Assembly (NCBI GenBank): GCA_013360465.1
Contig: JABWBO010000047.1
Coordinates: 1-58,383 of the forward strand
From: Anaerolineae bacterium
Lineage (GTDB): Bacteria > Chloroflexota > Anaerolineae > Aggregatilineales > Phototrophicaceae
Reading direction: 5' to 3'
Length of the DNA: 58,383 bases
Shown here: positions 151-58,383 of the stretch, in pieces
How positions within the stretch are numbered: position 1 is the stretch's first letter
Layout: each line of letters opens with the position of its first letter
Notes under the pieces: model-generated
Told to the model about the DNA's origin: nothing
The model's database searches: none
What the model saw: the letters and a program-made list of their open reading frames with translations, nothing else
Program-made: the position numbers and the translations under genes

Positions 151-215
151 ATCGCCGTGTCCGCCAGCGCGGGGGTAGCTGTCTGCCTCCGCGCCGTTTT
201 GTATGGAGAGACTGC

Positions 216-2815: not shown

Positions 2816-2841
2816 TCGCAAGTTGAGGGAGGAGAGATGAC

Positions 2842-4721: not shown

Positions 4722-4724
4722 CTC

Positions 4725-7904: not shown

Positions 7905-8027
7905 GAATGAGTGCCCGGGTTATGCCGGGCATCTCGATTATTGTGATGATAGTAAATATTGGGAGATTCGCGTTTCTCCCCTGTATATAGAAATGAGTTA
8001 CTTAGCGCCTTTTGGGAGAAGACCGAA

Positions 8028-8777: not shown

Positions 8778-8852
8778 GCTTGATAGCCGAACGCATCACC
8801 TGAGAATTGCTTGATAACGGAGCATTCAGGGCAAAGTAGATCCGTGGTGACC

Positions 8853-9670: not shown

Positions 9671-11682
9671 CGCGTTCGCTCCTGACGATATCGCTGATAC
9701 TGCCCACGAAGTTGGCTCAACGGCACGGTTTTGACCTTGCCGTCCGTGGCTTTGATGACCTTGGCTTGCAGGGCGTTTTCAAAGGCGACGGCGATGGACG
9801 ATGGGCTGCCCGCAATCGGTTCGGCGGTGGGCGGCTCTGCCGTGTCGGGTTCAAACTCGTCGAAGTCGATGCCGCGTTCCAACAGCAGCGGTTCACTCCC
9901 CTTCGCTCCCGTCAAACGCCGTTTCCAGTCAGCGCGCTCATAGAAGCGGGTCAACCGAGCATTCAGGATCACCTGCGTGGCAAAACCCGTTTCGACATAC
10001 CGGGCGAAAATCGTGCAATTACCGACCTGCGGCGTGATCACTTCATCGACGGTCAGCAGTGGACGCTGGCGCAGGTGACTGTTGGGATCATCCTGATTGG
10101 CGTCCGTCGTCGCCGTGCCGCTCGCCTTGCTGTAGAACTCCGCTGTATCCGCGTCGCAGCCGCCGTAGATCACCTGCGTTGCCAACCCGGTGAACAGCGC
10201 CTGCGTTCCTTCTCGCCCGTACAACATCTCGAACTGTCCCTTCGTCTGCGCGCCAATTAAGATCGAGATGCGGCGTTTGCGGACGAGGTTCACATCGGCG
10301 ACGAGGCTGTCGAGCTTGCCCAACGTCGGGAACTCATCGAGGATCACGCCGACCGGGACGGGTAGCGGACCTCTGTTGCGTTCGCCGATGGTATCGAGGT
10401 CGAGCATGAGCTTGCGCAGCGTCGCGCCGAGATAGGAGGCATAAACCGCGCGCATTCGCCCCGGACAGGTCAGAACGACGACGGTGGGTTGCTCGACCAC
10501 CAGTTCGGCATCGAAGTCAGATGCAGAAGTGTTGGCGCGCACGTCGATGGATGCCCAACCCGTGAGGGCGGTCGCCAGCGTCGCAATCACGTTCGATGCG
10601 ACCTTGCCATCCGATCCGACTGATGCGATGAAGCTGTTCGCCAGCAGTGCCGCATCGTCCTTTTTCGACTTGAGCGCCTTCGCCAGCGCTTTCACGTCGT
10701 TCATGGCGTTGTAAATTGCGCCAAGATTATCGAAGCGGATCAGGCAGGCGGCGAGCAGCGCAGCGGCACTGTCCGTCCAGAAGCGGTTGTCACCTTGCGC
10801 CGAGGGCACCAGCACATCGGCAATCGCCCGCGCATCGGACACATTGTCGATGCCTTGCGCGAGGTTGTAACGCGGTCCGGCGGCGCTGGTCGGATCATGC
10901 ACGACGACCAAGTGACGGGTAACGGCGGCGTACTTGAGGATATGGGCGGTAATTTCACCCTGCGGATCAGCCACGACGAGCGAATGCCCGGAGAGCATCC
11001 GGTCGGCAATCGCCGGGAGAATGATCCCCTGCGTCTTACCCGAACCGGGACCGCCGAGCGTCAGGATGCCACGTGCTACGTCTTCTCCACCGAGGCAGAA
11101 TTGCCCCGTCCCTACATCGAGCCGCCGTTTCTGCTCACCCCAAAATGCACCGAGTAGGATCAGTCCTTCGGGATCGGGACGGCGGAAGCGGCGGTACTCG
11201 CGCAGGGTGCAGAAGTGGGACGACCCCAACGCCCCGCGTTTGATCATCGGCGCACGCAGACGGTCGATCTTCTCGCGCAGCCACCCACCGTTCCGCAGCA
11301 GGCTGTGCAGTCCGATAGTGGTCATCATCAAGACAAACGCCAAAAATATGCCGAACAGGAACAGACGCATTGTGTGGATGCCCGGCGGTGCGCCGACCAG
11401 CAGATCGATCACGTCGCTGGCATTTGAGGGTCCGCGTTTCACTGCTTGATCGCCAAGCAGCATCAAATAGCCTGTCGCTGCCGTCAGCAGCACGACCGCA
11501 TAGGTCATGGCGAGTAGAACGCGCTGCACCCATGAGGCATTCGCGCCTTCAGCGTTAGTTCGCCGTATGCTGGCTCCAAGCGAAGTCGCAGTAATCAGCA
11601 TCACCATTGGCGTGCAGCACAACAGCGGAAAGAGTAGTCCAGTGAGCGCGTCCCGCCCATCTGTAAACAGCCAGTAAATCAT
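9667..11682 (-). CDS. virD4: VirD4/TraG-type conjugative coupling protein
   Basis: A 671-aa protein. ATG 11682 is chosen because AAGGAG lies 6 bp upstream and the start overlaps the stop of the small gene before it. The N-terminal about 140 residues hold several hydrophobic segments (e.g. LFPLLCCTPMVMLITATSLG, LFLFGIFLAFVLMMTTIGL). The ATPase core follows, with Walker A GGPGSGKT at 210-217 and Walker B VGVILDEF at 444-451, followed by PTLGKL as in TraG/VirD4 proteins. ADPQGE and a late GCDADTAEFYSKASG segment also match that family. The protein links the relaxase-DNA complex to the T4SS channel. The C-terminal 80 residues are an acidic, Pro-rich extension. Confidence 0.92.
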   Translation of the reverse strand: MIYWLFTDGRDALTGLLFPLLCCTPMVMLITATSLGASIRRTNAEGANASWVQRVLLAMTYAVVLLTAATGYLMLLGDQAVKRGPSNASDVIDLLVGAPPGIHTMRLFLFGIFLAFVLMMTTIGLHSLLRNGGWLREKIDRLRAPMIKRGALGSSHFCTLREYRRFRRPDPEGLILLGAFWGEQKRRLDVGTGQFCLGGEDVARGILTLGGPGSGKTQGIILPAIADRMLSGHSLVVADPQGEITAHILKYAAVTRHLVVVHDPTSAAGPRYNLAQGIDNVSDARAIADVLVPSAQGDNRFWTDSAAALLAACLIRFDNLGAIYNAMNDVKALAKALKSKKDDAALLANSFIASVGSDGKVASNVIATLATALTGWASIDVRANTSASDFDAELVVEQPTVVVLTCPGRMRAVYASYLGATLRKLMLDLDTIGERNRGPLPVPVGVILDEFPTLGKLDSLVADVNLVRKRRISILIGAQTKGQFEMLYGREGTQALFTGLATQVIYGGCDADTAEFYSKASGTATTDANQDDPNSHLRQRPLLTVDEVITPQVGNCTIFARYVETGFATQVILNARLTRFYERADWKRRLTGAKGSEPLLLERGIDFDEFEPDTAEPPTAEPIAGSPSSIAVAFENALQAKVIKATDGKVKTVPLSQLRGQYQRYRQERTR

Positions 11683-11858
11683 GAGCGCTCCTTCTGGCGG
11701 CGGCTGCGTCGTCCAATCCACCAACCGATCAGTGCTGTGATGAGTACAGTTAGGTAGATGCCTTCGCCGTTGGGTAACTTAAAGATGCGTCCGATGGCTG
11801 CTCCTGCCAGCACGAGCGTGACCAGCGTGAACAATCCAAGCCAGTGATAGTTCTGCAT
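11679..11858 (-). CDS. Small membrane protein, 59 aa
   Basis: Translating 11858 to 11679 gives 59 residues beginning MQNYHWLGLFTLVTLVL. It has two hydrophobic helices (about 6-22 and 34-49) joined by a short loop (GRIFKLPNGEG) and a strongly basic tail (GRRSRRQKERS). AGGAGG lies a few bases upstream of the ATG and the stop overlaps the VirD4 start (ATGA), so it is very likely translated and coupled to VirD4. A two-helix protein directly before a coupling protein may be a small partner that stabilises it at the membrane. No family recognised. Confidence 0.65.
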   Translation of the reverse strand: MQNYHWLGLFTLVTLVLAGAAIGRIFKLPNGEGIYLTVLITALIGWWIGRRSRRQKERS

Positions 11859-11866
11859 TGCGCCTC

Positions 11867-12532
11867 CTAAAGGGAGAAAAAGTCGTCCAAATCGATCTCA
11901 TCGTTACGCTGCATGTCTGCTTGGGGTTCTTCGCGCAGCGGTCGCCAATCGATACCACGCTCGTCGAGTATGTCGGCAAAGTGCTGCGCAGCGATATCAC
12001 GGAATAGACGGTCATGACCTTTCGTCGTGTTGTTGTAGACGGGGATGCGATCAGCCGTTGAGGGTGCTGTGCCGGGCAGAATTACATGCGTGTGCAAATG
12101 CTCCTGCGGCGGCTCACCGTCTTTGCCCTTTGTTTTCGCGTTGTGCATAAGGAAGCTGTATTCGGGAACATCGAAGCCGCGCTCGGTGTAGTAGTCCTCA
12201 ACGACGCGCTCGGTCAGTTCGTAGAGTAGCGCTCGACGCTCACTCTGCGGGACAAGTTCCATCAAGTCGGGAGCGGGGGAGATCACCCATGTCCATGCAA
12301 GGACATGCTTGCTTTGCAATGCATCGCAATTCTTGAAGATTTCGCCGTAAGACACACCCATGCCGTGATCTTGCCAGCGCTCGTAGGCGTGGTTTTGTGC
12401 AAGGTGGTTGTTCTTTTTATCCCGATACTGCAAATATTTGAGCGTGGCTTTCAAGCCCTGCCGCCCCGTGCCGCGTCCGGCGCGTTTGTGTCCCTTGTAC
12501 GCCCAATCCGGAATGATGATCGGTTTGCTCAT
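11867..12532 (-). CDS. Relaxase (mobilisation endonuclease)
   Basis: A 221-aa protein. Residues 145-149 read HLHTH followed by VILPG, the histidine triad that coordinates the metal in relaxases (motif III). A preceding strand-rich region contains HVLAWTWVISPAPDL and candidate catalytic tyrosines near the N terminus (LKYLQYRDKK, about 33-36). The ORF ends shortly after the nuclease domain with an acidic tail (DEIDLDDFFSL), so there is no helicase or primase domain. This gives a compact MobA-like enzyme that would nick at oriT and stay linked to the transferred strand. It overlaps the RHH accessory gene by 4 bp and lies 8 bp before the small membrane protein. The catalytic tyrosine was not proven. 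Confidence 0.72.
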   Translation of the reverse strand: MSKPIIIPDWAYKGHKRAGRGTGRQGLKATLKYLQYRDKKNNHLAQNHAYERWQDHGMGVSYGEIFKNCDALQSKHVLAWTWVISPAPDLMELVPQSERRALLYELTERVVEDYYTERGFDVPEYSFLMHNAKTKGKDGEPPQEHLHTHVILPGTAPSTADRIPVYNNTTKGHDRLFRDIAAQHFADILDERGIDWRPLREEPQADMQRNDEIDLDDFFSL

Positions 12533-45515: not shown

Positions 45516-46463
45516 ATGAGGAATTGGTTACGGAACTTGCAATATAGATCTGTCCATAGAATAGCCAACCCCATTAGCAGAATTGCCATTGGAACTTGGT
45601 TTTTTGGCGATAGAGTCGCCAAGAACGATGCCTTAGATTGCTTGGCGTGTGCAGTTGACAGTGGTATCAATCATATTGACACCGCAGATGTGTACGCCCG
45701 GGGAGAAGCACAGAGCATTGTTGGAGAATTTCTGAAAAGTCAATCGAGATCTAGTCTTTTCGTAAGCTCTAAGTGTTACTTTCCGACTGGCGGTGCTCAA
45801 CACGAAAGAGGTTTATCACGTGAACATATACTGGCCTCAGTCAACGAATCTTTAAGGAGATTGAATACCGACTACCTCGATATATTATACTGCCACCGTT
45901 TTGATGTAGAAACACCTTTGGAAGAGACTATACAAGTTTTGAATGAACTGACCGACCAAGGGAAAATTCGATATTGGGGTACCAGCATGTGGAAACCCAG
46001 TAATATCAGCGCGGCGCTTGAAATTTGTGGATCCAATCGCCCGTTGTTTGAGCAGTCATTGTACAATCTTCTCGAACGCCAGGTCGTTGAACCCGTTTTA
46101 TACAATTTCCTACTGCGTGAGAAAATCGGTTTAGTTGCTTGGAGCCCATTGTGTGGTGGGATTCTATCCGGGAAGTACTTGAACCATATTCCAGCTAACA
46201 GTCGTGTCACCTATATGCCGCAACTACTCGATCAGATTGAAAGAACTCGAACAATTGTTGATCGACTCAATGTTCTAGCCCATCAAATCGGATATGAGGC
46301 AAATCATCTCAGCTTGGCTTGGTTGCTCAACAAGCCACACCTAGCGGGATTAGTAATTGGATGCTCCAGCAAAGAACAGCTTGTAAGCAACTTGCATGCT
46401 GTTGAGTTGCCCTATACAGACTCGCTCGATGAGAAAGTATCGCAGATCATCACTCCGGACTGA
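45516..46463 (+). CDS. Aldo/keto reductase
   Basis: A 315-aa protein from ATG 45516. The AKR catalytic tetrad is complete: D55 and Y60 (HIDTADVYARGEAQ), K86 (FVSSKCYFP) and H127 (ILYCHRFD). Strand and helix order of the TIM barrel is present (GLSREHILASVNESLRRLNT, VLNELTDQGKIRYWGTSMWK, LAWLLNKPHLAGLVIGCSSK). Family members use NADPH to reduce aldehydes or ketones, and the KCNAB-like type is closest. It is convergent with the oxygenase gene, and their 3' ends overlap by 14 bp. Low GC places it with the adjacent peptide cluster, where it could reduce a modified residue or a carbonyl precursor; the substrate is unknown. Confidence 0.85.
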   Translation: MRNWLRNLQYRSVHRIANPISRIAIGTWFFGDRVAKNDALDCLACAVDSGINHIDTADVYARGEAQSIVGEFLKSQSRSSLFVSSKCYFPTGGAQHERGLSREHILASVNESLRRLNTDYLDILYCHRFDVETPLEETIQVLNELTDQGKIRYWGTSMWKPSNISAALEICGSNRPLFEQSLYNLLERQVVEPVLYNFLLREKIGLVAWSPLCGGILSGKYLNHIPANSRVTYMPQLLDQIERTRTIVDRLNVLAHQIGYEANHLSLAWLLNKPHLAGLVIGCSSKEQLVSNLHAVELPYTDSLDEKVSQIITPD

Positions 46464-47649
46464 TAACGCCAGCATTTATCAAAGTAGTAATGAAATACAG
46501 TTGGTCTTCCCAGGTGAGATGAGGTAGAACATGGATAGGAAATGCTTCGTCACAACTCAACAAGAAGGCTGCGGCAGCGGCAAAACGTTCGTCAAAGGTT
46601 ATCTTCAACCCTCCATTTGAAATGAGAACACCTTCTTCTGTCTGAATAACGTCAAGCGGGTTATTCAACCGTTTTCGTATCAAGGTTTCCGGCTTTAGAC
46701 TGGGAACGGATTCGAGATTTAGCAGAACACCTTCGAACTGCGCTCTTCTGCTTGCGATATGGCGTCCACTGATATTTTCCAAAATAGCTGATGAATCTCG
46801 CGCAATTGCAATGAACTGTTCGGCGAGAGTTTCGAAAAGTAACTCTGAAACTTCGTTCATTTTTCGGGTTTTGAGATCGCTCAATGTTATTGACTGACGA
46901 AAGCGACTATCTTCCCGACATATTCGAAGAGTTTCTTGGAAGAAGTCGAACCAAGTATAAGTATAGATTCCGAGTGTAACATGCAACGACGTTTCGTCCG
47001 ATGTGGACGCTTCGTGAACCATTCCCCTAGGAATATATAGAAAGTCTCCAGATTCCAGCACCACCGAGGTAGTTGGAGAACTCATGTGACCAGTGCCAAC
47101 TCTTTGGTGATAGGGGGTGGATTCATCTGGAACACCAACCGGAGTATCAAAAAGGTGCCAACATTTCTTACCATAGATTTGCAAGACAAATACATCATGC
47201 GTATCGTAATGTCGGGAAAAACCCTGTGCATTACGGGGGGTAAGGTATACATTCGCTTGTACACGGGCAAATAGTTCTTGTTCTAGTGACCCGCAGAGTA
47301 CCGATAGGTGCTTATTTCGTCTGTTGAGAGCCTCAATAACTATAGTGGCTCCTTCACTATAATATTTTATAGCCTTTCGAACATCAATCACACGCGAACT
47401 AGTTCTGTTGCCCCAAGTAATGGAAGATGTGTAATCTTTTGGTTCAAGTTGTTCCCCATCTTTGACAATACGGAAATGCCCCTCCAGTGGTTCTGTGGTA
47501 GTAAGTAGGGTATCAATATCGGTAAGCGTCAAAAGATCGCGATAATAGTCTACGGCATTACGCTTAACGATTAATTCCTGTTGCTGCCAATATGTATCTA
47601 GGAAGACATCAATGGAGTTAGGTTGAATTAAATCACGCAAGTTGAGCAT
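46450..47649 (-). CDS. JmjC/cupin-type 2-oxoglutarate/Fe(II) oxygenase (ROXA-like)
   Basis: A 399-aa protein. ATG 47649 is preferred over TTG 47670. The metal site H147-x-D149 lies in SRHYDTHDVFVLQIYGKKCW and the third ligand H212 in YIPRGMVHEA, the pattern of cupin_4/JmjC oxygenases. The C-terminal about 150 residues (FERFAAAAAFLLSCDEAF-type winged-helix region) match the dimerisation and wing domains of ribosomal oxygenase ROXA. Such enzymes hydroxylate Arg or His of peptides. It is the last gene of the - strand operon after the two precursor peptides, which suggests that it hydroxylates the core residues. Confidence 0.82.
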   Translation of the reverse strand: MLNLRDLIQPNSIDVFLDTYWQQQELIVKRNAVDYYRDLLTLTDIDTLLTTTEPLEGHFRIVKDGEQLEPKDYTSSITWGNRTSSRVIDVRKAIKYYSEGATIVIEALNRRNKHLSVLCGSLEQELFARVQANVYLTPRNAQGFSRHYDTHDVFVLQIYGKKCWHLFDTPVGVPDESTPYHQRVGTGHMSSPTTSVVLESGDFLYIPRGMVHEASTSDETSLHVTLGIYTYTWFDFFQETLRICREDSRFRQSITLSDLKTRKMNEVSELLFETLAEQFIAIARDSSAILENISGRHIASRRAQFEGVLLNLESVPSLKPETLIRKRLNNPLDVIQTEEGVLISNGGLKITFDERFAAAAAFLLSCDEAFPIHVLPHLTWEDQLYFITTLINAGVISPE

Positions 47650-47765
47650 GGGCTTCCGCAGTCTTTTCAAACTTCTAGTACGAACAATTACAAGATGAGA
47701 TCTCCTGTTCAGGCAACCTCATCTTGTAATGGTCATGCCTAAGTTAGATTGCTCCGATTGAATAC

Positions 47766-47933
47766 CTAGTTAGTATCGATGTAAGAGGTGTTGTCCGTTG
47801 TGTATGAATGCTCCGCCTGCACTTCGGCACCCTCAGCGTCGATGGATGCAATCATCTTGAGCTTTTTAAGTGTTTCGGCGTAAGTGTCCTTTGTTTGACT
47901 GTTGTCACTAACGGGCAAATTGTTAGTCTGCAT
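47766..47933 (-). CDS. Precursor-like peptide A (55 aa), candidate RiPP substrate
   Basis: The small gene from ATG 47933 to TAG 47766 has AAAGGAG about 10 bp upstream. The peptide begins MQTNNLPVSDNSQTKDTYAE and continues TLKKLKMIASIDAEGAEVQA, then EHSYTTDNTSYIDTN. The segment SQxxDxYAxTLxxxKxxAxID is shared with peptide B, which otherwise differs. The C-terminal 15 residues are rich in Tyr, Thr, Ser, Asp and Asn and hold one HxYT unit, as expected for a core peptide. Position between peptide B and the oxygenase gene, downstream of the radical SAM gene, fits a substrate. No homologue recognised. Confidence 0.7.
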   Translation of the reverse strand: MQTNNLPVSDNSQTKDTYAETLKKLKMIASIDAEGAEVQAEHSYTTDNTSYIDTN

Positions 47934-48015
47934 GTGTGCTACTCCTTTAGATTATCATTGGCCCCGAATGAGCACAATGTACATGCCTTCAATCATATGC
48001 AGTGGCGTGCGAAGG

Positions 48016-48219
48016 TTAGTTGGAAGTATAGGAATGTGAAGGGCTATAAGCGTGTGGATCGTCTGCATAGGGACTATCATTGTACGTGTAGTCGTGATCC
48101 GCCGGCATTCTTTCGTTCTTGTCATCGATAAACGCAAGTGATTTGAACCATTCAAGCGTTTTAGCGTAGGGGTCACGTCTTTGACTCCTGATAGGGGCAA
48201 GCAGTATGTTGTTGTTCAC
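48016..48219 (-). CDS. Precursor-like peptide B (67 aa), candidate RiPP substrate
   Basis: GTG 48219 has AAAGGAAT 7 bp upstream. The peptide runs MNNNILLAPIRSQRRDPYAK then TLEWFKSLAFIDDKNERMPA and DHDYTYNDSPYADDPHAYSP, ending SHSYTSN. The leader-like DxYAxTLxxxKxxAxID segment matches peptide A residue by residue. The C-terminal part has three H-x-Y units (HDYT, HAYS, HSYT). The aligned pair DHDYTYNDSPYAD / EHSYTTDNTSYID is also conserved, so core chemistry is probably shared. It lies 41 bp after the radical SAM gene, in the same operon. Confidence 0.72.
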   Translation of the reverse strand: MNNNILLAPIRSQRRDPYAKTLEWFKSLAFIDDKNERMPADHDYTYNDSPYADDPHAYSPSHSYTSN

Positions 48220-48259
48220 CTACTATTCCTTTCCTCTCACCATTGGTTCGCCAAGCTTT

Positions 48260-49396
48260 CTAAATGGAGAGCAATTGCCATTCATTCGTAAGGTTATTCG
48301 CCTCGATGTAGGAACCTAGACTCTCGTATGCATGGGCGAAGAGCATCTGACGCGCTTCACATTGACTCTCTTTGGAACCGTTATCCCCTAGTACTATATA
48401 GGCAGGACATCCACCATGACAGATAGAATACCACTTGCACTCTCGGCAATTGACGCGATATCTCTCTAGCTCATCAGTATGATTTTGCGCTTGGGATCCC
48501 TGAATGATTCTGTCGTAGTTTTCACTCAGGACATTGCCAAATTTCTTGCCAGTTTGACCAACATAGCGACCACACGGATAAATGCTACCGTCAAAATCCA
48601 GAGCGACAATCTGATGACAGGCACCGGCATACTGGCAAACGGACAGTCGGCGACGCAACAACCCAGCATGTACGATATCAAACGTTCTTATGGACACGTC
48701 GTATTTGCCTGAACGCCACACATCATATGATTTGACGAGAAACTTTCCATACGACGTATCAGATACGGACGGGGGTAATAAGTGATTGCGATCCTCTGAA
48801 ACTACGGTGCATGGAAGAAAATCAATGCGCTTGATACCTAGTGAGGCAAAGTTGGCAATTATCTCTTCTTCATGTCCAACTGAGTCTTCAGTGACGACAG
48901 CGAGCGCACTAATGTCTACTTCATGTTCCAGTAGGAGTTCTATACCTTTCATTACACGTCTTGATGATCCTCGTCCAGAAATTGACTGACGATGTTTATC
49001 TTGAAGCCATTCCGGACCATCCAAGGACACACCGACACGGAAATCGTTGGATTTAAAGAACTCTATCCACTGAGCGTTGATTAGCGTAGCATTTGTTTGA
49101 ATAACATTGGAAATGCGCTGTCCTGGTCGAACGTGCTCTCTCTGCAATTGAATAGCGTGCTGGTAGAAGTCAATACCGGCAAGAAGTGGTTCGCCACCAT
49201 GCCAGTCAAAACGCGCAAAAGAACCACTATATTCAAGAAATTCTGGCACAAATCGATCCAGAACTTCCGCAGAGAGTATCTGCAATGCACCAACATCAAA
49301 TGGACGTGAATGATTAATATAGCAATAATTACAACGCAAGTTACATGCTTTAACCGTCTCAACTATTACTTCGTGTGGATAATTGACTTTAATCAT
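48260..49396 (-). CDS. Radical SAM/SPASM peptide maturase
   Basis: A 378-aa protein. The radical SAM cluster site is C18-x3-C22-x2-C25 (KACNLRCNYCYINHS). WHGGEPLLAG at about 65-74 binds SAM, and VSLDGPE near 123 follows. The C-terminal SPASM domain has C254, C260, C275, C317, C320, C326, C330 and C346 (ACHQIVALDFDGSIYPCGR, NCRECKWYSICHGGCPAY), enough for two auxiliary Fe-S clusters. SPASM enzymes install C-C, C-S or C-O crosslinks or epimerise residues in ribosomal peptides. It overlaps the kinase-like gene by 8 bp and directly precedes the two precursor genes, the standard RiPP arrangement. Confidence 0.92.
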   Translation of the reverse strand: MIKVNYPHEVIVETVKACNLRCNYCYINHSRPFDVGALQILSAEVLDRFVPEFLEYSGSFARFDWHGGEPLLAGIDFYQHAIQLQREHVRPGQRISNVIQTNATLINAQWIEFFKSNDFRVGVSLDGPEWLQDKHRQSISGRGSSRRVMKGIELLLEHEVDISALAVVTEDSVGHEEEIIANFASLGIKRIDFLPCTVVSEDRNHLLPPSVSDTSYGKFLVKSYDVWRSGKYDVSIRTFDIVHAGLLRRRLSVCQYAGACHQIVALDFDGSIYPCGRYVGQTGKKFGNVLSENYDRIIQGSQAQNHTDELERYRVNCRECKWYSICHGGCPAYIVLGDNGSKESQCEARQMLFAHAYESLGSYIEANNLTNEWQLLSI

Positions 49397-50261
49397 TCAC
49401 ATACCCCAATTGATTTCTAACAATCCGTTCAATATGTGCAGCTGCTGTGCGAACGACTTCGTCCGGCATAGCGGAACCATCTAGTACGACAATTCTACTG
49501 TCGTTCTTACATAGGATTTCATACACTCGAGCAACCTGCTGTAGCTTAGAGAGATTCTTGAAGACATTTGGTCTTTCTACATTGCGGCGACCATTTGCAG
49601 TTTCGAGCGATACATCAATTACGATTGGCAGATCAGGAAATCTAACTAAAGTATTTGCAGTGAATACATTGTAGAAATACAGAAGATCGTCTACATCGTT
49701 TTGAAGATCAAACAGTCTCGCGCCTGCACTTGTGATTGGTGAGAGTAAATACCTATCAAAGACAACCACGGGATAGTCTTCAGGGACGAACGTTGTGTGG
49801 AGTAGCGCAAGCTCGGAAAGACAGATTATCAACTCTACCAGTACGTGTTGTTGATGTGTCGTAAAGATGCGTTCAAATAATTCTGAAAATACAAGGAAAC
49901 GCCTGTGTTTCCGTAGTTCTGCTGCTAAACACACTTTATAAGGCAAGCTTTTAGGCAACTTGGAAATGCAGCTAGATTTCCCTGCTCCGTTAATTCCATC
50001 AAAAGACACAAACACCGCGTCATGAATAGACTTAACAGAAGACGGCAAGCTAACTGTCTTTAAAAAAGCCAAGCATTCAGAAAGAGTTATAGCTTGTTTG
50101 GCATCTTGTTGATAAAAGTGTTCAGCTAGGAGGAGAAGTTCATAGGCGTGACGATGTCGTGAACGGATTAAGTCTAGTTGGGTACTAAAAATCTCACTTT
50201 CATAACTTGGGCACAAATCTTGCAGAAGCTTCAAAGTATTGTCCAAGGAGTCTGAATACAC
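49389..50261 (-). CDS. P-loop kinase-like protein (thymidylate-kinase-like)
   Basis: A 290-aa protein from GTG 50261. Walker A GINGAGKS lies at residues 89-96 within FVSFDGINGAGKSSCIS, very like thymidylate kinase (FIxxEGxxGAGKST). VVVFDRYLLSPITSAG is the DRY-type segment of that family, and IVIDVSLETANGRR continues the fold. The 85-residue N-terminal extension is unassigned. dTMP-kinase-like proteins in peptide clusters may phosphorylate other substrates, such as hydroxylated residues or a nucleotide cofactor. It overlaps the radical SAM gene by 8 bp. The true substrate is not deducible. Confidence 0.7.
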   Translation of the reverse strand: MYSDSLDNTLKLLQDLCPSYESEIFSTQLDLIRSRHRHAYELLLLAEHFYQQDAKQAITLSECLAFLKTVSLPSSVKSIHDAVFVSFDGINGAGKSSCISKLPKSLPYKVCLAAELRKHRRFLVFSELFERIFTTHQQHVLVELIICLSELALLHTTFVPEDYPVVVFDRYLLSPITSAGARLFDLQNDVDDLLYFYNVFTANTLVRFPDLPIVIDVSLETANGRRNVERPNVFKNLSKLQQVARVYEILCKNDSRIVVLDGSAMPDEVVRTAAAHIERIVRNQLGYVND

Positions 50262-50306
50262 TGATCAAGATAGCGCATTTAATACATACATGAAAAGTGA
50301 CAAATA

Positions 50307-51056
50307 TCATGGGTTTCTGTCAGGGGTAGCTTCTGCTTTCACCGATGTTGGGAACATTGACTTTGCTAGGTTATATAGATAGTAATCATATATATTCCTG
50401 TCTTGAATCGTTTGTCGTACTTGAGAAGGCAGGTCTTTAGCTGAAGGATGATCTTGGTTCGTGTTCAGATGTTGAACCGATACATCATTGCACCATCCTA
50501 AGAGTGTGCAAAGTGTTTCAACTGAACTTTCTAGAATTTCCGTAAATCCGACAAAGAACAATTCTGATAGGCGAGTCGTTATCAGATCGACGATTTGTGA
50601 ATGAGAATAAACGTCAATATTTTGACGAGGTGTTGAGATTAACGTGGATACTTGGCAATTTGATGTAAGGAAGTACAGTTCCTTGCTACTGGCAAATTCC
50701 TCAAGCGAAAGGCTCGTAGCCACACGCACATGTTCAGGTACGCGATTTCGGGGCAGGCGTGCACTTTCCCGCCTGAGATAGTAATAGTATGAGATTATGC
50801 GCTCTATAGGATCTCTGAGAATTGTAATGGTTTTGGTGTTTTTGGGGAGAAGCATTCGATACTTATAGCCAAAATGTCCCCTCAACAAACGATATTTCTC
50901 GATTTCCCCCTGAGGGATCAATACAAGTTGTTCAGGCAGCATAGCAGGTGCAATTTCATCTGCACTATAATGGCGATCAAGAAAGTCAATGACTGAAGTT
51001 CCAGCAGTCTTTGGTATATGAATAAAAAACAGACAATCTTGCGTCGATTGATCCAT
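50307..51056 (-). CDS. PAPS-dependent sulfotransferase
   Basis: A 249-aa protein. FIHIPKTAGTSVIDFL at about 11-26 is the 5'-phosphosulfate-binding loop (KTAGTS), and TITILRDPIERIISYYYYLR at 76-95 is the 3'-phosphate loop (R-D-P...S). Both are typical of the sulfotransferase_2 family. The remaining protein, EHVRVATSLSLEEFASSKEL and on, fits its length. The enzyme would transfer sulfate from PAPS to a hydroxyl. The neighbouring precursor peptides are Tyr-, Ser- and Thr-rich, so tyrosine or hydroxyl sulfation is a natural hypothesis. It is the first gene of the - strand peptide operon, 45 bp before the kinase gene. Confidence 0.82.
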   Translation of the reverse strand: MDQSTQDCLFFIHIPKTAGTSVIDFLDRHYSADEIAPAMLPEQLVLIPQGEIEKYRLLRGHFGYKYRMLLPKNTKTITILRDPIERIISYYYYLRRESARLPRNRVPEHVRVATSLSLEEFASSKELYFLTSNCQVSTLISTPRQNIDVYSHSQIVDLITTRLSELFFVGFTEILESSVETLCTLLGWCNDVSVQHLNTNQDHPSAKDLPSQVRQTIQDRNIYDYYLYNLAKSMFPTSVKAEATPDRNP

Positions 51057-51078
51057 TGAGATTTCCCTTTAGGATTGA

Positions 51079-51570
51079 ATGATGAACAACGAATGGAAGC
51101 CATCACATCTGAAGCAAATATATATCGATGCACGCGGAACGCAATGGGACATATCAGAATTATTGGCATCACACTTGCCACATCAGATTGAGTGCCGATC
51201 TGTAGATGACTTATGGGACAAATACAAAGATCGACATTGGTGGTCGTACAACTATACAGGCACTATACATTCACTCGCGGAATTCATTGATACTCCACAT
51301 TTACGGGAACTCTTGAGCATGTCATGTACACAGCTCAGAGCAAAGATTGTTTTCAAAAATACAGAAGCAGACCATATCTATCGAATAGCGGCAATGATTG
51401 TAGCGATTCGGGATATGGATTGGCAGGTTCCGCCTATTGTAATTGGACCTGACGGGGAAATTTGGGATGGTGGACATCGGCTTTGTGCTCTGAAATGGCT
51501 ACAGATCCCGTTTGTAACTGCGATTATAGTAAGAAACGTTTCATTGTCGGGAGAAGCGCAAGCGGAATAA
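51079..51570 (+). CDS. ParB/sulfiredoxin-fold protein (SbnI-like), unknown role
   Basis: A 163-aa protein from ATG 51079, divergent from the sulfotransferase with 22 bp between starts. PPIVIGPDGEIWDGGHRLCA then LKWLQIPFVTAIIV (residues about 117-150) is the G-x-x-x-x-GGHRL core of the ParB/Srx fold, which binds nucleotides. In SbnI a similar fold phosphorylates free serine using ADP. It is not a segregation protein, as it lacks a ParB helix-turn-helix. It may be a kinase or nucleotide-binding enzyme of the peptide cluster, or a stand-alone regulator. Low GC groups it with this cluster. Confidence 0.6.
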   Translation: MMNNEWKPSHLKQIYIDARGTQWDISELLASHLPHQIECRSVDDLWDKYKDRHWWSYNYTGTIHSLAEFIDTPHLRELLSMSCTQLRAKIVFKNTEADHIYRIAAMIVAIRDMDWQVPPIVIGPDGEIWDGGHRLCALKWLQIPFVTAIIVRNVSLSGEAQAE

Positions 51571-52554: not shown

Positions 52555-53022
52555 TTATCGACTCAACTCGAGGGCAACGGGGATCCCTTCCGCATGAAAG
52601 AACAGTGTGAGCCGTTCAATCTCCGCTTTCCCGATGACACTTTTCGAGACGCGTATACCCCGTTCATCGATATACTCGAAGCTGAGCCGCTTGATCCCGC
52701 CCTGCCGTCCGACGACTTTGACCACCTGCGTGGCGCTTTTCAGCGGCGCGAGTGCCGCCTCCGCGTAAGCACGGTACTGTCCCACCGTGAATTGAAAAAA
52801 GTCGCTGTGCATTGTCCCGCGCCACTGCCCCATCACTGACGTTTCATCCGGTAACGACAGTAGGTCGTGCGCATGGTCGAGCAGTCGTACTTGTACGGCA
52901 TCCTCAGTCGCGATGAACACGAGTAGCGGCGTGTGATTGAGCCGTTCCGCTGTGAAAACATCGCTCAGTTTGAAAAACTCGTCCACGTCCTTGCGTCCTG
53001 CGGTCACGATTTGAATTGTCAT
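52555..53022 (-). CDS. Unknown 155-aa protein
   Basis: It opens MTIQIVTAGRKDVDEFFKLS and holds TEDAVQVRLLDHAHDLLSLP and QYRAYAEAALAPLKSATQVV, a mixed alpha/beta protein without recognised motifs. Its start overlaps the stop of the primase gene (ATGA, 53019-53022), so the two are translationally coupled. It may be an accessory of the primase or a single-strand-binding factor. Function unknown. Confidence 0.55.
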   Translation of the reverse strand: MTIQIVTAGRKDVDEFFKLSDVFTAERLNHTPLLVFIATEDAVQVRLLDHAHDLLSLPDETSVMGQWRGTMHSDFFQFTVGQYRAYAEAALAPLKSATQVVKVVGRQGGIKRLSFEYIDERGIRVSKSVIGKAEIERLTLFFHAEGIPVALELSR

Positions 53023-54026
53023 GATCTCACTCCTTCACTAATCACGTTTTGCAGCCATGCTTTCACCACGTTTTCGCCTGTCTGCTGGTAGAACTCATTC
53101 AGGTCTTTGCCGTTCGGCACCTGCACGCACTTGACTGCCCCGGAGAGCGCCGCCAACTGTGCCGCTGCCCCTGTCCCCGCTGCATCCGCATCCATGCAGG
53201 CAATTACGCGCGGTACGCCAAGCAGCGCCCCGTACCAATGGCGGTCGATGCGGGCATGGCTGGCACTGCCGATGGCTGCTGCTCGTGCGAAGTCCCCACT
53301 GACCTGCATGGCGATCAGCGCGTCGAATTCGCCTTCCGTGATGATGAGCGGCGTTCGCGGCAAAATACGATCCGCCAGATACAGGCAACCGCGTATGTTG
53401 CCACCGCTCACCTGCTGATAACGCTGCTCACCCGCCGCCCGGCGCACCTTGATCCCCCAAACGGTATCGTTAACGATCCACGGGATGAGAATGCCGCACG
53501 GCACGTTCAGCCCCTCGATCTCCCGCCATGCGGTTGGTGCGCCGGGGAGATATCCCAGTTGAGCGAGTTCGATGATTTTTTCGCTCAAACCGCGCTCCCA
53601 GACCAGATAACCCCACGCGCGCTGCCCTTCTGGCGACCACAAGCGTTCACGCGCCTTGTCGATGATACGCCGCGCCTTCGTCTGCCACTTCGCATCTGGT
53701 GGCTGTGCCATCGGTTCGGGTGCGCGGTGTGCAGTGTTCACGGTTTCGATATGCGGCAGATCGCCGTTTGTCAGTCGTTCGCACGCCTCATGAAAGGTGA
53801 GCTGGTGGTAGTGCTGCACCCACGCGATGGCATCACCGCCCGCGTGGCACTTGCCAAAACAGCGCCAGTGGTGGGCGTAGACCACCAGTGAATAGCCTTT
53901 GTGTTCGCTGTGCAGCGGACACTTGAATGCGGCATAGTCGCGTCCGCGAAAGCGCGGCTTGCCGAGGTCACGCTCGACGAGATGGCGCAGGTCGAGCTGC
54001 GCTTTGAGTTTCTCTACATCAATCAT
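53019..54026 (-). CDS. DnaG-like primase (CHC2 zinc finger plus TOPRIM)
   Basis: A 335-aa protein from ATG 54026, with GGGGGAA upstream. The N-terminal zinc site is C36, H39, C56, C60 (KCPLHSEHKGYSLVVYAHHW and RCFGKC), the CHC2 type. The TOPRIM part has E231 (IITEGEFDALIA) and D279/D281 (ACMDADAAG), the metal-binding triad for primer synthesis. The linker helix region is short and there is no DnaB-binding domain, so it is a compact plasmid or satellite-type primase. It is coupled to the 155-aa gene. It complements the other, archaeo-eukaryotic-type primase at 37327. Confidence 0.8.
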   Translation of the reverse strand: MIDVEKLKAQLDLRHLVERDLGKPRFRGRDYAAFKCPLHSEHKGYSLVVYAHHWRCFGKCHAGGDAIAWVQHYHQLTFHEACERLTNGDLPHIETVNTAHRAPEPMAQPPDAKWQTKARRIIDKARERLWSPEGQRAWGYLVWERGLSEKIIELAQLGYLPGAPTAWREIEGLNVPCGILIPWIVNDTVWGIKVRRAAGEQRYQQVSGGNIRGCLYLADRILPRTPLIITEGEFDALIAMQVSGDFARAAAIGSASHARIDRHWYGALLGVPRVIACMDADAAGTGAAAQLAALSGAVKCVQVPNGKDLNEFYQQTGENVVKAWLQNVISEGVRS

Positions 54027-54233
54027 GTTGCTGACTTCCCCCAAATGAATTTCGTCAGTGCTGTGACGAAATGCCAAAATTCGGAATTCTGTCATTTCGT
54101 CATTTCGTCATCGCGGTGTCGAAATTGCTGTGCAGGGCAGTTTTCCCCTCAGCCTAGCGGCGAGTTTTCGTCACACACCCTCGAAAATCGTGTCATAGTC
54201 CTCGTTTTGAGGCGGGGAATTATGGCAAAGCCG

Positions 54234-55862
54234 CTATGACGAAATGATCGGGGTCGGTCGATAGCCTTTCGATGGACGACCCGCGCCTGTACCTTTGCGC
54301 TCGACCACCTCAATCACCCCATCCTCGACCAATGCCGCCAGTGTCGCGTCGATTTCTTTGCGCGACTTCACACCCGCACCACGCAGAATGTCCCGCGCTG
54401 ACGGCGGACGTTCGCCATGGCGTGCGATGAAGTCCAACACCTTCTTCTCGTTCTTCACGTCCACACCAATGCTCAGTTCGTCGAGCAGCCGATGCACCGA
54501 CGCACGGTACTCCTCAGCGAGCATCTGTCCGCGTACCCAGTGTGCTGTGGTGATGCGCGGCGCGTTGGGCATCCCCTCATCCGTCCAATCCATAATCGCC
54601 AAAATCAGCGCCAGCTTGAGTGCCATCGTTGAGAAGCGTCCGTAGTTGCCGCGCAGGCGGTCATCGAGGTTGCGGCGCGGATCGGTCATATCGTGCAGCG
54701 CAGCGTAATAGGCGTTGAAGTGGTCAAAGACTGCTGCTTCCATCGTCGCGCCGATGGCGGGATGCTTGACCGGTTCGTCCAGATCGTGGAGCGCGAACTC
54801 GTCCGGCGGCATCGGGAAGGCGTTGTACACCCGCAGCAATCGCGTTTTCAGGTCGGATGGAAACTCATGCGTGTCGAGATTGTGTCCATTCAGCACGCAC
54901 TTGATTTCACGTTCCGTCGGGGTCAGGCACAGGAAGCGCGCCATCAAGCCGTCCTCCCACTCACCGTCGGTGATGTAACGTCCCAACCGTGCGGGCGTGG
55001 TCGCGCCGATCATCGCCAGTGCAGGGTTGTAGACGATCAGCTTGCCATCGCCACGCAATTCGCGTTCCAAGCGACGCGGCGCATCGAACATTTCCATCAT
55101 CGTTTCGGTGTGTCCCTCCATGTACTTCTTCGGGATGAGCATCTTGCTCGCCTCATCGATCAGGATGCCGCGCTGACCGGCGAAGCGTGCCGCGAGGTCT
55201 TCGTTCTTGCGCTCGAACGGGAGCAGCTTGTCGTAGTTGGCAGGTTTTTCGCCCGCGAGCTTGGCGACCAGCATCTCCGGTGAAGTCGTCGCGGGTAGAA
55301 GCAGATGAGGCATCGTGTCGCGCACCATGTCGGTGATCGCGTTCAACCCGGTCGATTTGTGATAGTAGGTGGTCGGGGCGACCCACAGGTAGTACAGGTT
55401 CGGGTAGATGTCACCGAAGCCCAAGCGCAGCACGCAGCGCCGCGCTACCGCCAACCCGACCGCCCACAGCGGACCCGACTCCAGAAAGATACGCGGCGTC
55501 ATTGGCGAGCGCTGGCTCAACCACGCGAGGCAGTCATGATGAAATGCGCCGACGGTTTCAGCAGAAGCACGCAGTTTGTCGGTGAGTTGCGCCGACTTGG
55601 GCAGCGGCGGTACATAGGCGTCCTCTGATGAATGACTCGAAGTCGGCACCGGGACGTTGGGATCGACGCGCAAGACCTGCGCGCTCAGTTCAGGATCACG
55701 GGTCAAAATCTGCTGCAAGATTGACCAGTGGGTGCGGTCGTGCTGCCAATCGAGGGACGCCAGCAGCGACTCCACCAGCGGACTGAGGATCAATCCGGCG
55801 GGAATATCCAGCATCGATACGGCACGCCGCAGTGCATACGCATCGTGTTCGGTCAGGTTCAT
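54234..55862 (-). CDS. DUF3987-like P-loop protein with degenerate Walker A
   Basis: A 542-aa protein from ATG 55862, preceded by GGGAG. The N-terminal 150 residues include a Ser/Pro-rich linker. YPNLYYLWVAPTTYYHKSTG at about residues 168-187 occupies the P-loop position of the DUF3987 family but lacks the G-x-x-x-x-G-K pattern (KST is present). ILIDEASKM near 230 is the Walker B. The tail has a winged-helix-like region (KKVLDFIARHGERPPSARDI). DUF3987 proteins often partner primases on plasmids and phages as helicase-like factors. 207 bp of non-coding DNA separates it from the primase. Confidence 0.6.
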   Translation of the reverse strand: MNLTEHDAYALRRAVSMLDIPAGLILSPLVESLLASLDWQHDRTHWSILQQILTRDPELSAQVLRVDPNVPVPTSSHSSEDAYVPPLPKSAQLTDKLRASAETVGAFHHDCLAWLSQRSPMTPRIFLESGPLWAVGLAVARRCVLRLGFGDIYPNLYYLWVAPTTYYHKSTGLNAITDMVRDTMPHLLLPATTSPEMLVAKLAGEKPANYDKLLPFERKNEDLAARFAGQRGILIDEASKMLIPKKYMEGHTETMMEMFDAPRRLERELRGDGKLIVYNPALAMIGATTPARLGRYITDGEWEDGLMARFLCLTPTEREIKCVLNGHNLDTHEFPSDLKTRLLRVYNAFPMPPDEFALHDLDEPVKHPAIGATMEAAVFDHFNAYYAALHDMTDPRRNLDDRLRGNYGRFSTMALKLALILAIMDWTDEGMPNAPRITTAHWVRGQMLAEEYRASVHRLLDELSIGVDVKNEKKVLDFIARHGERPPSARDILRGAGVKSRKEIDATLAALVEDGVIEVVERKGTGAGRPSKGYRPTPIISS

Positions 55863-56074
55863 GATGACAAGCTCCCAGGCAATACTGAATAGAACTCGTG
55901 CCAAAAAACACGGTTTAAGGTGGTAAATTCAGTTGCACATGGGGGCAGGCTGTGATACATTGTGAGTGTCGAGTTCACAACTGTATCCCATGCCGCCGCC
56001 CACGCGCCTCACCAGCAGTGGGCATTTCCTTTTCTAGGGCGGTGCTCGTGTGCGCTTCATCTCAAGTCCCTCCA

Positions 56075-56098
56075 AATTGTTGCCGCGCGGCAACAATT
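56075..56098. other. 24-bp perfect palindrome, candidate parS
   Basis: The half-site AATTGTTGCCGC is followed directly by its inverse, centred at 56086/56087. It touches the parB stop codon (56097-56099). Centromere sites bound by ParB are often inverted repeats next to parAB, and location after parB is common. A terminator function is also possible, but no T-run follows on the - strand. Confidence 0.5.
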
Positions 56099-57299
56099 AT
56101 TCATTCTTCAGATACCGCTCGGCTTCGCCAAGCAACTTTTGCATTGCCTGCAACCGTGCCCGCGCAATGCTGGCATCCCCTTCTTGACGCATCAGTGCCC
56201 GCGCTAACTCCTGCGGTGTCGTCGCGCTGATCGTCTGTGTCACCTTTGCCATTTTCGCAGCGGAAGGCGAAACGTCATCCATATTCTTTTCCTGATGTGC
56301 GGTGTCACCTTCACAGATTTCCTTGACCTGTTTGGCGGATAAGTTGAAGTCGATGATCTGGCGCACGATTTCCGCGTGATACTCCTGCGGTGTTGCAATC
56401 ACGCAGCGCAGTTTGAATTCATCGATGGCGTGACGATCCGCGAGTTCAAGCGCTTCATCTGACAGGCGTAGTAGGTTCTTGATTCGGCTGAACTGGGTTC
56501 GTTCCATGCCGCCCATTGCACTGAGAATCACATCGGTGTACTCACGGCGGGCGCGTAGGTTGAGGTCGAGCGCCTGCCGGAAGAAGTCGTTGCCGACCGC
56601 GTATGCTGGAATCTCGTACCCATGCACCGTGAGCAGCAACAGAGCCGCCTGCCGCGCCAGTGCCACCGCTGTCAGACCAGAACGTGCGGTGTTCTCCTTT
56701 GCCTGACGAAAAACGGATGAGCGGTTTGCAGGAATGATGATGCATGGGATCATGCCGTCACCCGTGTAGCCGGGGATAAAGTCGCGCAGTAGCCACGTCG
56801 CCCAATAACGGCGTTCTCCCGTCTCGATACGGAATAAGCGCGTCACGCCCTGAGACACATCCACGACTGTGAGCGGATTCACCTGACCGTCATCCCGAAT
56901 AGTCATCGCAAGATTAACCAGATCGCGCAGCAGTGTTTCTTCGGGAGATAGGTTGACTGCTGGTTCATCCTCACGCTCATCGTCGCCGTTCGGCAGCAAT
57001 TCGAGCACGTTGTTAAACGGTCGTCCACGCTGACGAGCGGCAATCTGCACGATCTGCACCAGTTCGCGCAGCGCTTGCGTTGGGGTCACGCGGTTGTTGT
57101 GGAAATTCAGATGAATGCTCTCTGGTAGCACGCGACGCGGCTGCACCGGATCGGGGCGTACCATCTCCAGCAGGATACGCTCGACGCGAATCGAATTGTC
57201 CGTGAACGTCTGCGGCATATCACCCAGCAGGTCACCTGTCACCGATGCGAGCAGATCATCAATGCGCGATGTATTGTCATTATTCGCCCGTGCCATCAT
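56097..57299 (-). CDS. parB: ParB-family protein (PRTRC-type partition)
   Basis: A 400-aa protein. The ParB N-domain has RIETGERRYWATWLL at about 157-171 (GERR box 161-164) and KENTARSGLTAVALARQAAL, and the helix-turn-helix region follows (FSRIKNLLRLSDEALELADR). The extension between residues 60 and 130 is longer than in chromosomal ParB, as I recall for PRTRC ParB. It would bind a centromere site and, with ParA, segregate the plasmid. It overlaps parA by 4 bp (ATGA, 57296-57299). A palindrome lies at its end. Confidence 0.9.
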   Translation of the reverse strand: MMARANNDNTSRIDDLLASVTGDLLGDMPQTFTDNSIRVERILLEMVRPDPVQPRRVLPESIHLNFHNNRVTPTQALRELVQIVQIAARQRGRPFNNVLELLPNGDDEREDEPAVNLSPEETLLRDLVNLAMTIRDDGQVNPLTVVDVSQGVTRLFRIETGERRYWATWLLRDFIPGYTGDGMIPCIIIPANRSSVFRQAKENTARSGLTAVALARQAALLLLTVHGYEIPAYAVGNDFFRQALDLNLRARREYTDVILSAMGGMERTQFSRIKNLLRLSDEALELADRHAIDEFKLRCVIATPQEYHAEIVRQIIDFNLSAKQVKEICEGDTAHQEKNMDDVSPSAAKMAKVTQTISATTPQELARALMRQEGDASIARARLQAMQKLLGEAERYLKNE

Positions 57300-58120
57300 T
57301 CGCCGCCTTTGGATAGATAGCGGACGAGCGACGCGACGACCTGCATATACGCTTTGCTGGCTGACGAGCGTGGATCGTAGGTGAATAAGCTCTGATGATT
57401 CCGATGTGCGTAGGACACCGCTTCGTTTGACGGGATCACGCCAAGCAGCAACTTGCCCAAGACGGCGTGCCCTTTAAGCTCCGCCAGTAGGTGATTGTGA
57501 CCACGCACACGGGTATCCATCTTCGTCACCAACAGACCGCTCACACGGAGATTGGGATGTCGCCAACCTTCACGAATGTCGTTGATCTTCTGAATGACGC
57601 TGGTGAGACCGACTGTTTCCAGATAGCGTGGCTCAACCGGGATGATCGCGTCCGTTGCGGCGATCAAGCCCATCTCGGTGAGCAGTGAGAACGAGGGACG
57701 AGTGTCGATAACGATTGCGCCATACTGGTTCGCGATCTTGCTCAACGGATCAGCGAGGCGATAGGGTGCACCTGCCACACCCATCAACTCGCGTTCTGCG
57801 CCTTCGAGCATAGGGGAAGCAGGGAGAACATGTAGGTTTTCATCCCACGTTGATTGCACGATGCAGTTCATCAACGTCTGCGGTGCATTCTGGCGTTCTG
57901 CCATCAGCACCGTGTACAGACTGTCATCCGCGCCGTAGTCCTTGCGACCGGTCGTGACCAGTGAGGCATGTCCCTGTGAATCGGTATCGACGATCAGCAC
58001 GCGCGGATTGGGGGCATCAGCGCGGCGCAGCAGATTGACGATGCCAAACGCGATGTTGGTGGCGGATGTCGATTTACCGACACCCCCTTTGTGGTTGGTG
58101 AATACGAACGAACGAGTCAT
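57296..58120 (-). CDS. parA: ParA-family partition ATPase
   Basis: A 274-aa protein from ATG 58120, with GGGAGGAAAAGG upstream; an open frame to 58222 has no such site. NHKGGVGKSTSATNIAFGIV at about 9-28 is the deviant Walker A (KGGVGKST), followed by RVLIVDTDSQGHASL and GAIVIDTRPSFSLLTEMG (Walker A' and B). There is no N-terminal helix-turn-helix, so it is a type Ib-like or ParA-only form. It moves ParB-bound DNA over the nucleoid. It is the first gene of the partition operon, with a possible promoter region at 58121-58330. Confidence 0.93.
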   Translation of the reverse strand: MTRSFVFTNHKGGVGKSTSATNIAFGIVNLLRRADAPNPRVLIVDTDSQGHASLVTTGRKDYGADDSLYTVLMAERQNAPQTLMNCIVQSTWDENLHVLPASPMLEGAERELMGVAGAPYRLADPLSKIANQYGAIVIDTRPSFSLLTEMGLIAATDAIIPVEPRYLETVGLTSVIQKINDIREGWRHPNLRVSGLLVTKMDTRVRGHNHLLAELKGHAVLGKLLLGVIPSNEAVSYAHRNHQSLFTYDPRSSASKAYMQVVASLVRYLSKGGE

Positions 58121-58335
58121 TGCCTTTTCCTCCCAGTAACCCAACAAACTGTCGAATTCGCTGTGGCTGGCAAGGACTTCTCGGAGGTGTGCTATAGTGA
58201 CATCCGGGAGCCCCGCTGGCACGGGCAGCGAGCTTCAAGGGGAGTGGGGGAGGCGGCGACCTCTCCCTCTCACCGCAAAAGCCGATCTAGCTAAGGGTTG
58301 AGAGGCGCACGAGATGTGCGTGATAGGGGAATTGA

Positions 58336-58383
58336 ATGCGTTGGATAAAAGTTGAGCGATTTAAGCTAGGGGATTGTTCGGAT
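58336..58383 (+). CDS. Possible partial gene start, + strand
   Basis: AGGGGA (58325-58330) lies 5 bp before ATG 58336, and the frame stays open for 16 codons to the window end (MRWIKVERFKLGDCSD). The region before it (58121-58335) holds only a CTATAG stretch near 58192 and short inverted repeats such as GAGG/CCTC. No family can be assigned from 16 residues. Confidence 0.35.
   Translation, partial: MRWIKVERFKLGDCSD

Follow-up and report, generated by a model that had tools for sequence, protein, structure and literature searches.

The 58,383-nucleotide (nt) contig JABWBO010000047.1 of an Anaerolineae bacterium (Chloroflexota; assembly GCA_013360465.1), which was analysed over its full length and is called the window here, carries at positions 45516-51570 an AT-rich island that, judging from its sequence, very likely encodes a biosynthetic cluster for ribosomally synthesised and post-translationally modified peptides (RiPPs). 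The island is probably best explained as a horizontally acquired RiPP operon with two precursors, which would be cross-linked by a radical S-adenosylmethionine (SAM)/SPASM enzyme, hydroxylated by a JmjC oxygenase and then perhaps sulfated or phosphorylated; the cluster is best read as a new combination of known RiPP modules. An earlier note on this DNA had proposed such a cluster with two precursors, and the proposal is supported by the paralogous leader-core peptides, by a SPASM enzyme that falls outside the sulfatase-maturase clade and by a JmjC protein of a RiPP-associated family.

Six co-directional open reading frames (ORFs) on the minus strand make up the putative operon. These encode a family 2 sulfotransferase (50307-51056), a thymidylate-kinase-like P-loop protein (49389-50261), the radical SAM/SPASM enzyme (48260-49396), precursor peptide B (48016-48219), precursor peptide A (47766-47933) and the JmjC oxygenase (46450-47649). 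The sulfotransferase and kinase-like genes are 45 nt apart, the kinase-like gene shares 8 nt with the radical SAM gene, and the remaining distances are 40 nt (radical SAM to precursor B), 82 nt (precursor B to precursor A) and 116 nt (precursor A to JmjC). The tight, co-directional arrangement described in the earlier note was thus found again, with gaps of 40-116 nt and one overlap, and so was the low G+C content of the genes relative to the backbone. The island has a G+C fraction of 0.432 (43.2%) compared with 0.569 (56.9%) for bases 1-45400, and the lowest of 195 segments of 6.2 kb with starts in bases 1-39000 still has 0.475. All five enzymes of the island, the reductase described below included, pass the Pfam cut-offs of their families.

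The two precursors, of 55 (A) and 67 (B) residues, match no Pfam or NCBIfam family and are paralogous. Their Smith-Waterman score is 93, against a mean of 23 and a maximum of 52 for 5000 shuffles, and the leaders alone score 59 (shuffle maximum 38). The island has 52 other small ORFs, and the best score among their 1326 pairs is 41. The leader common to A and B spans about residues 1-40, with shared positions that include D-x-Y-A-x-T-L; its conservation and the variation of the cores, which end in EHSYTTDNTSYIDTN (A) and ADHDYTYNDSPYADDPHAYSPSHSYTSN (B), are judged from these two copies only. Precursor A is preceded by a Shine-Dalgarno sequence, AAAGGAG (47942-47948), and precursor B by the Shine-Dalgarno-like AGAGGAAAGGA (48227-48237), the GTG start of B being in register with the ATG of A. 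As in RiPP clusters, these short ORFs lie beside modifying enzymes, here between the SPASM and JmjC genes. The motif H-x-Y occurs once in the core of A and three times in that of B, and Y-x-D once and twice, respectively. The sum of seven in both cores is reached in a fraction of 0.00012 of 50000 composition shuffles, for motifs that were picked after inspection of the sequences.

A long hairpin with 24-nt arms (83% complementary) lies on the minus strand between precursor A and the JmjC gene (47684-47733). The RNA fold of 47650-47770 has a z-score of -3.64, and none of 200 shuffles was equally stable. The hairpin has no clear T-run and was not called by the terminator scan; the counts of the promoter and terminator scan were no higher than those of shuffles and were not used. 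The hairpin is a possible attenuator, processing or stability element, and may adjust how much peptide is made relative to the downstream enzyme.

The radical SAM/SPASM enzyme (PF04055, 59.6 bits; PF13186, 28.5 bits) retains CNLRCNYC and eight SPASM cysteines. Its CxxxCxxC motif is at residue 18 and no N-terminal extension precedes it. The protein could be taken for a divergent anaerobic sulfatase maturase, the short ORFs then being unrelated small proteins, as its best NCBIfam model is the anaerobic sulfatase maturase TIGR03942 and the solved structure nearest to it is that of anSMEcpe (4k36, E 1.7e-50). The model score of 294.7 bits is, however, below the cut-off of 349.45, which 6 of the 10 relatives scanned exceed (393-504 bits). 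Alignment with 52 relatives revealed that the residue after the third SPASM cysteine is Gly in this enzyme and Asp in all 45 relatives that keep all eight cysteines. This is the position of Asp277 in anSMEcpe, a catalytic residue. In a maximum-likelihood tree of 62 rows the sulfatase-maturase group, 47 rows of which 46 were so labelled by the analyst, does not include the enzyme (support 98/99); the branches are long (its own is 2.0) and the bootstrap is unsettled, and the tree was used only for exclusion from this clade. The island has no sulfatase gene, and the two sulfatase-fold genes found in the genome have Thr-x-Pro stretches at the active site, with no C/S-x-P-x-R motif seen by eye. A sulfatase-maturase identity was rejected because of the Gly residue, the clade and the sub-cut-off score, which together with the paralogous leader peptides make the alternative as a whole highly improbable. 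Separately, the same genome has 20 matches to the FGE-sulfatase domain and two to the sulfatase fold.

The radical SAM enzyme is instead read as a peptide cross-linker, a function that its SPASM type, the adjacent precursors and the core motifs make somewhat more likely than not. The aromatic-x-X motif by which triceptide cores are recognised is present twice in A and five times in B, as H-x-Y or Y-x-D.

The JmjC_2 2-oxoglutarate oxygenase scores 98.7 bits against PF08007 (cut-off 22) and is predicted to be a peptide hydroxylase with a C-terminal domain similar to RiPP recognition elements (RREs). His147, Asp149 and His212, taken as the metal ligands, are invariant in all 70 aligned rows. The AlphaFold2 model (67 rows; mean predicted local distance difference test score, pLDDT, 94.2) superposes on NO66 with a Z of 33.1 over 380 residues and a root-mean-square deviation of 3.7, and on MINA53 with a Z of 30.5 for the whole chain. 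When the last 100 residues were modelled alone (pLDDT 86.4), MINA53 (Z 12.3) and NO66 (about 10) were followed by RREs or RRE-bearing enzymes, namely PbtF (7.9), McbBCD (7.8), MccB (7.7), TbiB1 (7.2), PqqD (7.2) and LasB1 (6.3). In this model the C-terminal domain resembles RREs, which agrees with a remark in the available part of PMC12710340 that PF08007 JmjC proteins are fused to RRE-like folds and that their bacterial homologues occur in RiPP-like contexts.

The neighbourhoods of other PF08007 proteins provide the strongest support for a peptide as the substrate of the oxygenase. A genome scan with a four-sequence profile confirmed at least 487 relatives, of which the best 80 were kept; with three plasmid loci these gave 83 loci, and 79 were left once four with 900 nt or less upstream had been dropped. 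An ORF was counted as Asp-rich if at least eight of its last 40 residues were Asp, the rule and the distances being chosen after the peptides had been viewed. In 31 of the 79 loci such a small ORF adjoins the JmjC gene on the same strand; on the opposite strand it does so in none of the 79, and among 1538 displaced positions 20 had one. The repeats are of several types, including DNDPSDPVI-like (L034, L072 and L078), DGTDGTD (L028, L029 and L086) and SDxDPxDP (L059 and L061), and other cores are rich in Tyr and Asp (L055, L067, L075 and L090). A DPGG-repeat peptide lies beside the JmjC-family gene of L169, and further loci carry leader peptides of the Nif11 type or, judged by eye, of the NHLP type. 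Based on these small Asp-rich neighbours, PF08007 oxygenases and Asp-rich ORFs apparently form a widespread RiPP family, and it is likely that the JmjC protein of the island hydroxylates the peptide; where a ribosomal protein might be considered as substrate, genomic context presumably argues for a peptide instead. Examples of the Asp-rich ORFs are L029:7628-7867, L034:7799-7945, L061:7600-7857 and L055:7630-7962. In L028, beside a DGTD-repeat peptide, the JmjC gene overlaps at its 3′ end with a sucrase/ferredoxin-like gene (PF06999; 9190-10107), and L029 has a similar neighbour (9181-10101).

The residue that would be hydroxylated is less clear, as the Asp-rich neighbours favour Asp and the fold relatives favour His. 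Hydroxylation of His rather than of Asp or Asn, as by NO66 and MINA53, would suit the closest folds, which are histidyl hydroxylases (Z 30-33), and the H-x-Y motifs of the cores. The RiPP-side relatives, however, adjoin Asp-rich peptides, several of them without His in the stretch printed, and His is the rather unlikely choice.

The sulfotransferase scores 40.4 bits against PF03567 (Sulfotransfer_2; cut-off 22), and its translation contains KTAGTS and RDPIERIISYYY, which we take to be the motifs that bind 3′-phosphoadenosine 5′-phosphosulfate (PAPS). The latter aligned weakly with heparan sulfate 2-O-sulfotransferase (E 0.017). The genome encodes one adenosine 5′-phosphosulfate (APS) kinase domain, and PAPS can therefore probably be made by the host. 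The kinase-like protein matches Thymidylate_kin (PF02223) above the Pfam cut-off (34.5 bits, residues 87-271) and has about 80 extra N-terminal residues; against the dTMP kinase equivalog TIGR00041 it reaches 35.2 bits, below the cut-off of 83.25. The nucleotide motifs of both proteins look intact by eye. What points to their acting on the peptides is the structure of the operon; on this ground sulfation is put forward tentatively, and phosphorylation is the more doubtful of the two.

It can also be supposed that the peptides are substrates of the radical SAM and JmjC enzymes only. The sulfotransferase and the kinase-like protein would then be passengers in the island and would modify something else, a glycan or a nucleotide. 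Enzymes of the thymidylate kinase fold usually phosphorylate nucleotides, and tblastn of the 80 JmjC loci (E up to 0.01) gave no homologue of either protein. Of the plasmid matches to the sulfotransferase the best was inspected; it sits among glycosyltransferases in a glycan locus, which also counts against the proposed pathway. On the other side are the 8-nt overlap of the kinase-like and radical SAM genes, the short gaps between six co-directional genes and a sulfotransferase of another family that flanks JmjC and SPASM genes in locus L038, there on the opposite strand. The passenger explanation is a serious possibility, if not the favoured one.

In the proposed RiPP pathway, the RRE-like domain of the JmjC protein would hold the leader, the radical SAM enzyme being without an N-terminal extension. 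The radical SAM enzyme would then form side-chain cross-links from aromatic to i + 2 residues of H-x-Y and Y-x-D, at two sites in A and five in B, and the JmjC enzyme would hydroxylate the core at one residue, with Asp or Asn as the likeliest target and His as the next. The sulfotransferase and the kinase-like protein would next add sulfate and phosphate, most plausibly to Tyr, Ser, Thr or the new hydroxyl. No protease, exporter or immunity gene was recognised in the island, and release of the peptide would therefore depend on host genes.

Several further results weigh against this reading. Among the matches listed (25 of 69 families), the models for cyclophane maturases all score below their cut-offs: GrrM 174 (cut-off 310), YhhB 140.6 (445), AmcB 153 (425), FxsB 134 (370) and XyeB 92.6 (450). 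The DynA model NF041298 gives 225.6 bits (cut-off 450), and relatives that exceed the sulfatase-maturase cut-off score alike (210-240); a dynobactin specificity, considered on the basis of this score, was dropped for that reason. Taken alone, Y-x-D is at shuffle level in either core (0.23 in A, 0.20 in B), as is H-x-Y in A (0.12), and it is in B that H-x-Y exceeds the shuffles (0.0027). The last 40 residues contain four Asp in precursor A and seven in precursor B, below the Asp-rich threshold of eight. Matches of the C-terminal JmjC domain to proteins that are not RREs score like those to RREs (BmdB, a non-ribosomal peptide synthetase module, with the oxidase BmdC, 7.5; a winged helix, 6.2), and the RRE Z values of 6-8 fall in a range where a common arrangement is possible. 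Finally, none of the scans that used the precursors, the JmjC protein, the kinase-like protein or the radical SAM enzyme as query turned up the cluster a second time.

The searches for single components were of different scope. A profile of the precursors, run against 301 genomes of the phylum, matched itself twice, with a best non-self E of 0.012 in the 300 others, and precursor B gave only weak Acinetobacter frames (E 6) in plasmids. The JmjC protein was without a match in 395 other genomes of the class, and in 150 relatives of genome G777 it had matches in four genomes, one of them new. In the phylum sample, 399 other genomes gave only two matches to the kinase-like protein, both weak (E 8e-6 and 4e-5), and neither it nor the radical SAM protein had a confirmed match in viral contigs. 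For the radical SAM protein, a single-protein scan of genome contigs gave 79 pattern matches, none of which was confirmed, and a plasmid search gave 243 records, all below 60% identity. Five of the plasmid neighbourhoods were fetched, and the three that are annotated (L025, L026 and L139) show sulfatase or sugar genes. For the 58 radical SAM loci, the neighbourhoods covered are limited by a median locus length of about 4 kb. When eight proteins were compared by tblastn with loci L022-L106, only the JmjC protein, the radical SAM enzyme and the reductase described below had matches. Against 165 loci (own excluded; E 0.01), the kinase-like protein matched only L142 and L143, the sulfotransferase only L171, a locus that had been fetched for the sulfotransferase itself, and the precursors and the gene at 51079-51570 had no match.

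Part of the gene combination does recur. In L038 (4999-10189) a SPASM enzyme of the GrrM/OscB type, a tetratricopeptide repeat (TPR) protein, a PF08007 oxygenase and a Sulfotransfer_3 gene lie together. A motif scan of the 83 JmjC loci for SPASM, sulfotransferase and kinase genes gave one SPASM match (L036, beside a Nif11-type peptide) and three loose sulfotransferase matches (L035, L049 and L053); it missed L038 and thus undercounts. According to the earlier note, no described family is known to combine a SPASM enzyme, a JmjC oxygenase, a sulfotransferase and a dTMP-kinase-like protein. Among the matches listed for open-access full text, no paper has radical SAM, JmjC and sulfotransferase together; L038 repeats part of the set. 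A more far-reaching proposal is that the locus represents a new RiPP class, in which an undescribed SPASM lineage cross-links the peptide at H-x-Y and Y-x-D, an RRE-bearing JmjC enzyme of the ribosomal-oxygenase type hydroxylates it, and sulfation and phosphorylation follow, the latter by a peptide kinase of thymidylate kinase fold, with a widespread and largely unnamed PF08007/Asp-rich repeat family behind it; taken as a whole, this is unlikely.

The operon is flanked on either side by a plus-strand gene. The product of 45516-46463 is an aldo/keto reductase (PF00248, 223.5 bits over residues 13-294, tested on 45543-46463; the ATG is at 45516), as the earlier note had it. The gene is convergent with the JmjC gene, their 3′ ends overlapping by 14 nt, and lies within the same AT-rich island; a role of the reductase in the pathway is uncertain. 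At 51079-51570, 22 nt from the sulfotransferase gene and divergent from it, is a gene for a 163-residue protein for which no family was detected, comparisons with Pfam, NCBIfam, PHROG, PDB and plasmids being without a match at the limits used. The ParB/sulfiredoxin-fold label that the note had given this protein was not confirmed; its one support is a DGGHR-like motif.

The reductase has a bearing on another explanation, that the product is a redox cofactor or a metal ligand derived from a peptide, like pyrroloquinoline quinone (PQQ) or mycofactocin, with the reductase as its user. A dehydrogenase-type neighbour in the island, cores rich in Asp, His and Tyr that could bind metal, and an island with no recognised gene for export, proteolysis or immunity would all fit. 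Two cores of unlike length better suit a family of products, however, and the reductase gene is convergent and outside the operon, which leaves a cofactor as an improbable product.

In 1-12000 and 53000-58383 the contig encodes a type IV coupling protein (TraG/TrwB), ParA, a topoisomerase and a DNA primase, together with a ParB-like protein that scores below the Pfam cut-off. These genes suggest a conjugative plasmid or an integrative and conjugative element, of which the island would be cargo. The tRNA scan found none. Possible defence genes, among them an Eco57I-type methylase and a ResIII/PLD helicase, lie between 15101 and 31000, and the AT content of this stretch is higher from about 20 kb onwards.

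Should the predicted chemistry hold, a radical SAM cross-linker of a new lineage, a JmjC enzyme that hydroxylates peptides and perhaps also the sulfation and phosphorylation of peptides would come from a single operon, with two short cores open to simple co-expression. The PF08007 oxygenases are related to human NO66 and MINA53, and their occurrence beside Asp-rich ORFs in several bacterial phyla suggests a second role for them that can be tested, and offers a handle for genome mining.

Of the known systems, the biphenomycin-type RiPPs likewise combine a JmjC hydroxylase with a radical SAM cross-linker. The excerpt of PMC12707348 describes BipG as a JmjC enzyme that hydroxylates ornithine in a RiPP precursor, and the JmjC proteins of biphenomycin clusters (BipG/BpmG) appear as hydroxylases of precursor ornithine in the available parts of PMC12707348 and PMC12257519. 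According to the same excerpts, those clusters have a B12-dependent radical SAM enzyme, an MNIO and an arginase, none of which is found here, and their precursors differ. NO66, MINA53 and YcfD (PF08007) share with the JmjC protein the full-length fold, the metal triad and a C-terminal winged-helix domain; unlike them, it has precursor peptides adjoining its gene, and its identity to NO66 is about 24%. L038 (Proteobacteria bacterium NC_groundwater_912) is similar in that a stretch of about 5 kb holds a PF08007 oxygenase, a sulfotransferase and a SPASM enzyme (GrrM/OscB, 376 bits, over the cut-off). It differs in its SPASM subfamily and in a Sulfotransfer_3 gene on the opposite strand, and it has no homologue of the kinase-like protein or of the precursors.

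Dynobactin (DynA/DynE) resembles the present system in its His/Tyr pair at i and i + 2. HSY occurs in both precursors here, and we take HSY (His-Ser-Tyr) to be the dynobactin motif. The order given in the available part of PMC11002830 differs, with Tyr at i and His at i + 2 in a Tyr-His C-N link. The DynA score of 225.6 against 450, cores without Trp and an island without recognised transporter genes set the present system apart from dynobactin. The triceptides (YxdB, HaaB, YhhB and GrrM/OscB) differ in that the listed cyclophane-maturase cut-offs are not reached here, where JmjC, sulfotransferase and kinase-like genes are present in addition and the cross-links are predicted. They are alike in that a SPASM enzyme lies beside a precursor with aromatic-x-X motifs. 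In the excerpt of PMC11002830, HaaB and YhhB act on His, and YxdB, whose motif is the YxD also found in the cores described here, joins Tyr C3 to Asp Cβ.

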